Assembly (NCBI GenBank): GCA_005883575.1
Contig: VBFH01000029.1
Location: 1-64,000 of the forward strand
From: Chloroflexota bacterium
Lineage (GTDB): Bacteria; Chloroflexota; Dormibacteria; Dormibacterales; Dormibacteraceae
DNA length: 64,000 nucleotides
Reading direction: 5' to 3'
The translations under genes were made by a program, and so were the position numbers. The stretch's first letter is position 1. Each line of letters starts with the position of its first letter. The notes under the pieces were generated by a model. That model saw only the letters and a list, made by a program, of their open reading frames with translations. It had not been told where the DNA came from and ran no database searches. Shown here piece by piece: positions 16,073 to 19,388 of this stretch.

Positions 16073-16189
16073 TAGCTCGTGAGAATAAGCGCTCCGGGAA
16101 AGTAGAATCCCGGCGCGGCGGTTGGGCTCGACCGCCGACTTTATGGTGTGCCGGGAAGGCTGGTCGGCAGGAGGTCGGCGGCCGCCCCG

Positions 16190-17401
16190 ATGAGCACTGC
16201 GCAGAGCTTTCTCTTCTTCCTGATCCTGCTCGGCGTCGCCGCCACGGGCTTGCGCCTCGTGTCCCGAACCGCGCCCATCGTCCCCTACCCGGTGCTGCTC
16301 GCCGTCGGCGGCATCCTGATCGGGATCGTCAGCCCGGAGATTGGGGGACTCCGGCTGCCGCCGGTCGGCCCCGATCTGATCCTGCTTGCCTTCGTTCCCG
16401 GGCTTGTGTTCGAGGCCTCGCTGTCACTCGATCTCGGTGAGATGTGGCGGCGTGTGATCCCGATCAGCCTGCTGGCCACGGTAGGAGTTTTCCTGACGGT
16501 CGTCCTGATCGGCTCGCTGGCCCACTACGGGCTCGGCCTGGACTGGGCAAGCGGTTTTCTGCTCGGCGCGATCGTGGCCGCGACCGACCCGATCGCCGTG
16601 GTCAGCCTCCTCCGTCAGCTTGGCGCGCCGCGTGGTCTCGAGGCGATCCTCGACGGAGAGAGCCTGTTCAACGATGGCACCGGTGTCGCCGTGTTCTCGG
16701 CCGTGCTGGGCACGATCCTCACAGGCCATCCCTCGCTCGGGGATGCGAGCCTGAGGTTTGTCTTCGTGACGGTTGCGGGGCTCGCGATCGGTTTGGCCGC
16801 CGGAACCGCCGGCGTCCTTCTCCTCCGACTCGTCCGGGAGGCCGAGCTCGAGATCCTGATCACGCTCGTCCTCGCGTACGGCTCGTACCTCGCGGCCGAC
16901 GTCATCCACGCGTCAGGCGTCGTGTCGGTGGTGACCGCCGGCATCGTGGTCGCTCGCTACGGGAGCCGGACGGGGCGCCTTCAGGGCACGCAGCTGCATG
17001 GTTTCTGGAACCTTCTCGCCTTCGTCCTCAACGCGATCCTCTTCCTCATGGTGGGCATCGCGCTGCCCGCCCAAAGGCTGGTGGCGGTGGCGGGCCTGGT
17101 CCTGGGCGCCTACGTGATCATGTTCGTGGCGCGGGTCATCCCCGTCTACACCTTGCTTGGCCTCGCGGATCTGCGGGGTTCTTCGATCCCGTGGCGCTGG
17201 CGGCACATGACGCTGTGGGGCGGGTTGAGGGGCGCGCTGTCCATCGCCCTCGCGCTTTCGGTGGCGGCGGAAGCGGGCGTCGACCCGAGGGTCTCCGTGC
17301 TGGCGTATGGCATGGTCGTGCTGTCGCTACTGGTGCAGGGCGGCCTGCTGCTGCCTGTGGCCGACCTGCTCGGACTCCGCAAAGCCGCCGTTCCTGTCTG
17401 A
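16190..17401 (+). CDS. CPA1-family sodium/proton antiporter
   Basis: The 403-residue protein has about twelve helices. It carries the CPA1 motifs [16 protein letters not shown] and [16 protein letters not shown], whose Asp residues form the ion-binding site, and the late [18 protein letters not shown]. It probably exchanges Na+ or K+ for H+ across the inner membrane. ATG 16190 is preferred; AGGAGG lies rather far upstream (15 bases). GTG 16148 is the longer alternative. Confidence 0.88.
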
Positions 17402-17439
17402 GCGCGCTGCGCGCGGACGTCGGATTAACGTTTTCCGCC

Positions 17440-18633
17440 ATGCGGGTGCGGGTGGGGATCGCTCTGCTCTTGATCGTTGCCGGCCTGGCGGCCTTCAACT
17501 ATCTACGACCCATCCCCGCGGTCGCGGCCAGACCTCTCCTGCCCAACTCTGACGTGGTCGCGGGTACGGCGCCGGCTCTGCCGTGGCCGGCCCGCGGCGC
17601 CGCGGCCGTGGGTGTCTCGGGCCTCGGCTTCATCGCCAGCTCCGGCAACGAACAGGCGATTCCCACCGCGAGCGTGACCAAGGTGATGACCGCGTTGGTC
17701 GTGCTCACGGACAAGCCGCTGAAGAAGGGCGAGACCGGACCGACGATCACGATGACGGATGCCGACGTGCAGGCCTACCAGACGGACCTGAAGAGCGAGC
17801 AGTCGGTGGTCAAGGTCGAGACAGGCGAGCAGCTGACCGAGTTCCAGGTCCTGCAGGGCATGTTGATTCCGTCGGCCAACAACCTGGCCGACACCCTCGC
17901 GCGCTGGGACGCGGGCTCGATCGATGCCTTCGTCTCGCGCATGAATGCCCGTGCGGCGGCGATGCATCTGAGGCACACGAAGTTCGCGGACACCAGCGGC
18001 GCGTCGGCCGCCAGCGTCAGCACACCGTCCGACCTCCTGGCCTTGGGCATGGTGGCGATGCAGGATCCGGTCTTCGCGCAGGTCGTCGGCCAGGCACAGG
18101 CGGACCTGCCCGTGGCCGGAACCGTCTTCAACGTGAACGGCGTCCTCGGGCAGAACGGCATCGTCGGCATCAAGACCGGTTCCGGGCTCAACACGGGCGC
18201 GAACTTTCTCTTCGCGGCGAGCGTCACAGTCGACAATCGCGAGATCTTCATCTACGGGTGTGTGATGGGCCAGCCGTCGCTGGCGATTGCATTCGCCGGC
18301 GCGAAGGCGCTGATCGGCGCCATGTCGCCGGCGCTGCACGTGCGGCGCGTCATCGCTCGCAACCAGTCGGTGGCCAACTACTCCTTGCCATGGGGCGCGG
18401 CGACAGACCTTGTGTCGGCCGTGGACGTCGATCTGGCCGTGTGGCCGGGCATGGTCCTGCGCCAGCATCTGAACGCAAGCCCACTCGTCGTCGACAAGCC
18501 GTTGCCCTCGAGCACGAAAGAGGGCACTGAGCACCTGGTGCTCGGCGACTATAAGCTGGACGTCCCCCTCGTCACGGCCGACCCGCTCTACCCCCCAGGC
18601 CGGCTTTGGAGGCTGACCCGCCTGAGCTTCTGA
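17440..18633 (+). CDS. D-alanyl-D-alanine carboxypeptidase (penicillin-binding protein, S11)
   Basis: The 397-residue protein has an N-terminal signal/anchor helix at residues 4-20. All three serine penicillin-binding motifs are present: SxxK in PTASVTKVMTAL, SxN in PSANN, and KTG in GIKTGSG. It trims D-Ala from peptidoglycan pentapeptides outside the membrane. A C-terminal region after residue 300 resembles the S11-associated beta domain. TAACGT sits eight bases before ATG 17440. Confidence 0.88.
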   Translation: MRVRVGIALLLIVAGLAAFNYLRPIPAVAARPLLPNSDVVAGTAPALPWPARGAAAVGVSGLGFIASSGNEQAIPTASVTKVMTALVVLTDKPLKKGETGPTITMTDADVQAYQTDLKSEQSVVKVETGEQLTEFQVLQGMLIPSANNLADTLARWDAGSIDAFVSRMNARAAAMHLRHTKFADTSGASAASVSTPSDLLALGMVAMQDPVFAQVVGQAQADLPVAGTVFNVNGVLGQNGIVGIKTGSGLNTGANFLFAASVTVDNREIFIYGCVMGQPSLAIAFAGAKALIGAMSPALHVRRVIARNQSVANYSLPWGAATDLVSAVDVDLAVWPGMVLRQHLNASPLVVDKPLPSSTKEGTEHLVLGDYKLDVPLVTADPLYPPGRLWRLTRLSF

Positions 18634-18672: not shown

Positions 18673-18951
18673 GTGATCAACCCGAAGCACGACGTGCGGA
18701 TCGAGTTCTGTGTCCCTTGAGACTACCTTGACCGGGCCGTGAGCCTGGCCGGCGACCTCCTCGCCAGGTGGGCCCCGATCATCCGCACCGTCGAGCTGCA
18801 GAGCGCCGCGCACGGGCGCTTCGAGGTGTCGCTCGACGGCGACCTGCTGTTCAGCAAGGCGTCGTCGGGACGTCACGCGAAACCCAGAGAGATAATCGAC
18901 CTCGCCGAAAAGAAATTGGGTCCGGCTCTGCTGTGGCGTAAGAACTCGTGA
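18673..18951 (+). CDS. SelW/Rdx-family protein with CxxU motif encoded by TGA (candidate selenoprotein)
   Basis: A frame opening at GTG 18673 (or GTG 18694) reads VRIEFCVP, then TGA at 18718-18720, then DYLDRAVSLAGDLLARW. It ends LLFSKASSGRHAKP and LGPALLWRKNS at 18951. This is the Rdx (SelW/SelT/SelH) thioredoxin-like fold, whose N-terminal redox motif is CxxC or CxxU. The TGA falls exactly on the second redox position, giving Cys-Val-Pro-Sec. The product is 92 residues, full length for the family. Automatic callers will start it late at GTG 18739 and lose the active site. A hairpin follows the TGA. Its stop is followed closely by a conserved hypothetical gene. Confidence 0.78.
18732..18752 (+). 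promoter_or_regulatory. putative bacterial SECIS element
   Basis: CCGG pairs with CCGG and, past a bulged G, CC pairs with GG, enclosing the loop GTGAGCCT. The hairpin starts 11 bases after the TGA. A G leads the loop, 19 bases from the TGA, as bacterial SelB-binding SECIS elements usually have. The loop contains the spurious GTG start 18739. Confidence 0.45.
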
Positions 18952-18968
18952 CGACACCGGAGGGGAGG

Positions 18969-19388
18969 ATGGGAAAGGCGACGATCAAGGGGTCTGGCAC
19001 CAGGCAGTCACCGTGGGAGCTGACGACGCCGAGCGGCTCGTCGCAATACCTGATGTACAGGGATGAGGCGGCAGATCCGCCCGCGATCGTGTGCATCGTT
19101 GGCAAAACGGAGCTGCGCTACCAGCTCCGGGCCATCGACGATCTGCACGCGATGCTGAAGAAGCACCGCGATTGGATGCCTCTCGGGAGCGCGGACGAGC
19201 AGAAGCCGGCCGCCGAAGGCACGGTCGAAGCGTGGGGCCGCTCGCCGAAGAACCCCGCCGGCGGCTGGTACGGACTCAAGAAGGGACTCCGCGGCCGCTT
19301 CGGGATGTACATGCCGCCGCTGCTCGAGGCCCTCGGGCTCGCCGAGGTCGAGCACAACCCCAAGAACAACCGGATGCGAGCGATCTGA
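18969..19388 (+). CDS. conserved hypothetical protein (DUF6855-like)
   Basis: The 139-residue soluble protein contains SPWELTTPSGSSQYLMYRD, VGKTELRYQLRAIDDLHAML, and GGWYGLKKGLRGRFGMYMPP. I recall similar proteins only as conserved hypotheticals in Actinobacteria. A GTG at 18948 overlaps the SelW stop, but ATG 18969 has GGAGG five bases upstream and is preferred. It is probably co-transcribed with the SelW-like gene. Confidence 0.65.
   Translation: MGKATIKGSGTRQSPWELTTPSGSSQYLMYRDEAADPPAIVCIVGKTELRYQLRAIDDLHAMLKKHRDWMPLGSADEQKPAAEGTVEAWGRSPKNPAGGWYGLKKGLRGRFGMYMPPLLEALGLAEVEHNPKNNRMRAI

Follow-up and report, generated by a model that had tools for sequence, protein, structure and literature searches.

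We found that the 64,000-nucleotide stretch of DNA analysed here, hereafter the window, carries a gene for a small thioredoxin-fold redox protein of the Rdx (SelW-like) family, with the predicted active site Cys-Val-Pro-Sec and an internal UGA that would be decoded as selenocysteine (Sec). Judged from sequence, the probability of this reading is about 97%. Three lines of evidence support it, namely a conserved in-frame UGA, a conserved SECIS-type hairpin behind it, and a complete set of genes for Sec synthesis and insertion. Because the genome contains the whole Sec machinery and related species retain the UGA together with the same type of hairpin, UGA 18718 is a selenocysteine codon in a SelW-like redox protein and no error. 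Hence, UGA is very probably translated as selenocysteine in this lineage, as a sequence-only reading of the window had proposed; of the checks suggested there, all those that were run gave positive results. The features discussed below are collected in Table 1.

Table 1. Coordinates of the SelW-like gene and of its recoding elements in the window.
Feature	Position	Strand	Description
Sec-containing Rdx/SelW-like gene	18673..18951	+	Codes for 92 residues, from a GTG start to the stop codon TGA 18949-18951
In-frame TGA read as selenocysteine	18718..18720	+	Residue 16, second redox position of CVPU
Bacterial SECIS-like hairpin	18732..18748	+	6-bp stem CCGGGC/GCCTGG, loop CGTGA, -8.8 kcal/mol
Apical loop CGUGA	18738..18742	+	G at loop position 2 in 43/43 aligned relatives, U or G at position 3 in 43/43

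The SelW-like frame, its relatives and the selenocysteine machinery

The frame reads VINPKHDVRIEFCVP-TGA-DYLDRAVSLAGDLLARWAPIIRTVELQSAAHGRFEVSLDGDLLFSKASSGRHAKPREIIDLAEKKLGPALLWRKNS-TGA, and the TGA at 18718-18720 is its only interruption. The read-through protein matches the Pfam Rdx domain (PF10262) with an E-value of 6e-16 (58.8 bits, cut-off 22.6), and this match covers residues 8-77, that is, both sides of the TGA. The NCBIfam model of the SelT/SelW/SelH family, TIGR02174 CXXU_selWTH, is also matched above its cut-off (46.1 against 34.2 bits). The redox motif is C13-V14-P15-U16 (CxxU), with the TGA at the second of the two redox positions of CxxC/CxxU. These data bear out the sequence-only reading, which had described a SelW-like protein with TGA at the redox-active Sec position and continuous SelW/Rdx sequence flanking it. 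In an AlphaFold model (pLDDT 94.4), a strand at residues 6-13 is followed by a helix at 19-36, and the CVPU motif at 13-16 comes after the first strand of a thioredoxin-like fold. The best PDB matches of this model are the bacterial SelW-related structures 2obk, 2oka, 2fa8, 3dex and 2p0g (TM about 0.8); mouse SelW (2npb) and thioredoxins rank lower. Most likely, to judge from motif and family, the product is a thiol/selenol oxidoreductase, and it would work through a Cys13-Sec16 selenenylsulfide.

The start codon is supported by the relatives, in which GTG 18673 aligns with ATG or GTG; most of them open with M/V-I-[ND]-P-[KR]-H at the equivalent position. A plain ORF caller misses the full gene and returns a 70-residue fragment (18739-18951) that begins with a GTG in the SECIS loop, and the annotation of such genes will be truncated in this way. 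This 70-residue ORF does exist, but it is highly improbable that translation starts at the internal GTG 18739 to yield a form without the redox motif. The residues 5' of the TGA, start context included, are conserved in relatives, the GTG within the hairpin loop has no start counterpart in species where the hairpin has another register, and in the short form the fold would be left without its first strand and its active site. Even less credible is the view that translation truly ends at the UGA and that the conserved upstream stretch is a short leader peptide regulating the downstream ORF. Such leaders exist in general and no result here points to one, while the 15 upstream residues belong to the same Rdx domain, to which they contribute the first strand and one half of the active site, and Cys homologues have both parts as one protein.

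The full-length, Sec-containing reading is further sustained by the comparison with related genomes. An Rdx gene was found in 22 of the 42 genomes of the taxonomic family, and all 22 copies contain exactly one internal stop, always TGA and always at the same codon. In the phylum, 184 of 400 genomes searched carry Rdx. Among 150 phylum matches listed, 96 have one TGA and 54 no stop (table count), and neither TAA nor TAG was seen inside any of these 150. The sequence 3' of the TGA is conserved in relatives as well. It could be argued that an ordinary Cys-type Rdx gene has recently acquired a nonsense mutation, or that the TGA was introduced in assembly, given that a stop codon is present and that the source is a draft assembly of 127 contigs; nothing else speaks for a pseudogene or a sequencing error. 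This explanation, to which we assign almost no probability, is already refuted by cross-species conservation: the same TGA recurs in all 22 family species with the gene and in roughly two of every three phylum matches listed, with TAA and TAG in none, and it is followed by conserved sequence.

In the 33 loci that were read, drawn from the phylum search and from a contig scan for Cys forms, the residue aligned with the TGA is Sec or Cys only. Close relatives all have TGA, distant homologues Cys or TGA, and neither an unrelated residue nor a true stop occupies the position in these loci. The contig scan used a query with Cys back-translated, which detects Cys forms only, and its three matches are all Chloroflexi metagenome-assembled genomes (MAGs). 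Of note, these three MAGs with a Cys-type Rdx also have selB; thus, Sec and Cys forms both occur in SelB organisms.

The genome itself (3.6 Mb in the draft assembly, 95.5% complete) has all the genes that decoding of UGA as Sec calls for, and selA, selB, selC and selD, which the sequence-only reading had named as the genes to look for, were all recovered. The tRNA-Sec gene (selC) scores 71.4 bits in Rfam, against a gathering score of 47, and ARAGORN also calls it tRNA-Sec, with anticodon tca (UCA). selA (511 bits) and the full-length selB (345 bits) directly behind it overlap by 4 nt, and selD (337 bits) has a TGA in its own frame at the catalytic position, HGAG-U-ACK. For this selD TGA, no simple hairpin fitting the bacterial SECIS (bSECIS) model was found; the folded stretch forms a longer imperfect stem (L020). 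Moreover, two formate dehydrogenase alpha genes, of the kind also suggested for a search, have TGA at the canonical Sec site, in the contexts CNRT-U-HAPSVAGL and QARV-U-HGPTVVSL. Their hairpins, GTCGCC-GGTCT-GGCGAC and GGTGGTC-AGTTT-GGCCGCC, are of the same form as that of the Rdx gene and both lie at spacing 18. Altogether, UGA occupies a known Sec position in at least four genes of this genome.

The in-frame UGA might in principle be decoded otherwise, through a reassigned code (Trp or Gly) or through misincorporation of Cys. This is very unlikely, as genes here end in TGA, among them the Rdx gene and the upstream peptidase gene, the genome encodes a tRNA-Sec with a UCA anticodon and full SelA, SelB and SelD, and non-TGA homologues that were read have Cys, never Trp or Gly. 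Decoding as Sec would then follow the established bacterial pathways. SelA would convert Ser-tRNA-Sec into Sec-tRNA-Sec with selenophosphate from SelD, SelB would bind both Sec-tRNA-Sec and the hairpin, and the ribosome would insert Sec at UGA 18718 and continue to UGA 18949, where it would stop.

Regarding the gene neighbourhood, a DUF6855 gene (18948-19388) shares 4 nt (GTGA) with the Rdx gene at its stop. In three species of another genus (L024, L025 and L026), DUF6855 lies directly upstream of Rdx, near 1064-1480. The two genes adjoin in 4 of the 22 family loci, in two orders, and were not found side by side elsewhere in the family. We considered DUF6855 as a functional partner of Rdx, but the pairing is not obligate: the two are on other contigs in G016, G024 and G040, and DUF6855 is present without Rdx in G005, G010, G025, G030, G036 and G041. 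Upstream, at 16148-18633, lie a Na+/H+ exchanger-like gene and a D-Ala-D-Ala carboxypeptidase-like (Peptidase_S11) gene, the latter with a TGA stop at 18631-18633.

The hairpin behind the TGA

In the published bSECIS model, the loop has 3-9 nt, the stem 4-16 bp, and a G stands in the first two loop positions; spacing is limited to 16-37 nt and energy to at most -7.5 kcal/mol (PMC13188914). The hairpin at 18732-18748 falls within all these limits (5-nt loop with G as its second base, 6-bp stem, UGA-to-loop spacing 17 nt, -8.8 kcal/mol), as is the case for only 161 of the 1483 TGAs (10.9%) on both strands of the window. The sequence-only reading had placed a hairpin with a loop-leading G 11 bases past the TGA. 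The distance holds, as the stem begins 11 nt past the TGA, while the conserved G turned out to be the second base of the 5-nt loop.

The energy of this hairpin is not exceptional relative to shuffled sequence (z -0.01), and the case for it rests on comparative evidence. A synonymous recoding test of the hairpin gave P about 0.09; across single sequences such tests were weak (P 0.005-0.35). Neither these tests nor the shuffles reached significance for single sequences, and they were not used as evidence. An Rfam search of the window returned no match. We also tried a looser bSECIS search with loops of up to 14 nt, which chose other hairpins in several sequences; it was the comparative register that identified the conserved one.

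When the hairpin was defined comparatively (4 or more stem pairs closing a 5-nt loop whose second base is G, spacing 17 or 21), 43 of the 45 Sec genes had it and none of the 10 Cys homologues did; these spacings were picked after viewing the Sec genes, so that the Cys genes are the fair part of the test. The two exceptions, L054 and L055, have a 6-nt loop (CGTGGA) on the stem GCGCCG/CGGCGC, a third variant between the two registers. With the strict energy threshold, 24 of the 45 Rdx genes pass the bSECIS model.

The stem also covaries across species. In the loop-anchored alignment, 90% of cells pair, and two-sided changes occur in 30 cells as against 9.5 in shuffles and at most 10 when the partner strand is slid out of register. 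The covariation score is 0.556, compared with 0.150 in shuffled alignments (0 of 500 reach it) and at most 0.292 with a slid partner, and in the +21 set alone it is 0.353 against 0.184 (0 of 500 shuffles); all these figures overstate independence, since the sequences are related and the alignment was chosen by structure. The contrast between Sec and Cys genes agrees with them, and so does the codon-level compensatory pattern of the +21 set, in which ACC goes with GGT, GTC with GAC and GCC with GGC. Among the 15 distinct +17 sequences we detected no compensatory stem change, because 4 of the 6 pairs never vary.

Two registers of the hairpin

Two registers of the hairpin were observed. In the majority of the phylum sequences read and in six family members (L034, L035, L039, L040, L042 and L043), the loop lies 21 nt past the UGA; in the window gene and 15 other family members it lies 17 nt past it. 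The +17 register is near the spacing of 18 of the genome's own formate dehydrogenase hairpins. The codons that make up this shared loop motif differ, being GC[C GTG A]GC in the window and GT[C CGT G] in the others, and the protein alignment is free of gaps at the hairpin. Since 4 nt does not correspond to whole codons and the proteins align without a gap, the hairpin must have been rebuilt rather than shifted by an indel. These data favour the view that this SECIS hairpin, with its NG[U/G]NN loop and roughly 4-7 closing pairs, moved between the +21 and the +17 register in evolution. It seems rather likely, too, that in this move the RNA element was rebuilt over other codons and residues (AV-R to AV-S) with the reading frame of the protein preserved. 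If this is true, an RNA recoding signal has slid along a coding sequence. We found no description of such a register shift in a literature search that was not exhaustive; the rest of the case is already known.

In the family, selB is above the cut-off in 34 of the 42 family genomes and is thus retained in most of the family; two Rdx-bearing genomes with selB below the cut-off, G021 and G038, are 71% complete, and in G038 selB is in two pieces on one contig. Rdx is patchy, with 3 of 17 genomes in the window's genus carrying it, and since many selB-bearing family members are without Rdx, the gene is dispensable. Moreover, G007, which belongs to the same genus as the window, has the +21 form, and transfer or repeated change is therefore possible. 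Taken together, the patchy distribution of Rdx and the other register in G007 suggest loss and perhaps transfer. Aligned together, the Sec genes (hairpin in 43 of 45) and the Cys genes (hairpin in none) make a clean test case for SECIS constraint and movement in coding sequence.

Comparison with known SelW-like proteins

The Cys-type bacterial Rdx structures (2obk, 2fa8, 2oka and 3dex) share the fold of the modelled protein, and in 2fa8 a Cys aligns at the Sec position of the window protein. Cys-type Rdx proteins differ in having Cys instead of Sec, and the 10 Cys homologues examined as DNA all lack the hairpin. Eukaryotic SelW, such as the mouse protein, belongs to the same family and has the CxxU motif. 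Sec insertion in eukaryotes involves a SECIS element in the 3'-UTR and other factors, whereas the hairpin described here forms part of the coding sequence, which is the bacterial arrangement.

The closest counterparts are the bacterial SelW-like selenoproteins (PF10262/TIGR02174), which have the same domain and a CxxU motif with Sec second, and likewise a SECIS-type hairpin directly behind the UGA and the Sec machinery in the genome (PMC1088965, PMC1794560, PMC13188914). SelW-like proteins were the most abundant selenoprotein family in the Sargasso Sea set (PMC1088965), were counted in bacterial genomes in 2006 (PMC1794560), and are listed as PF10262 with CxxU in a 2026 review (PMC13188914). 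SelW-like genes are thus well known in bacteria, and the gene of the window is a clear example of a kind known since about 2005, from which it differs in nothing essential. The window's clade has CVPU where many phylum relatives have CTSU, and its hairpin lies 4 nt nearer the UGA than in most SelW-like relatives of the phylum.
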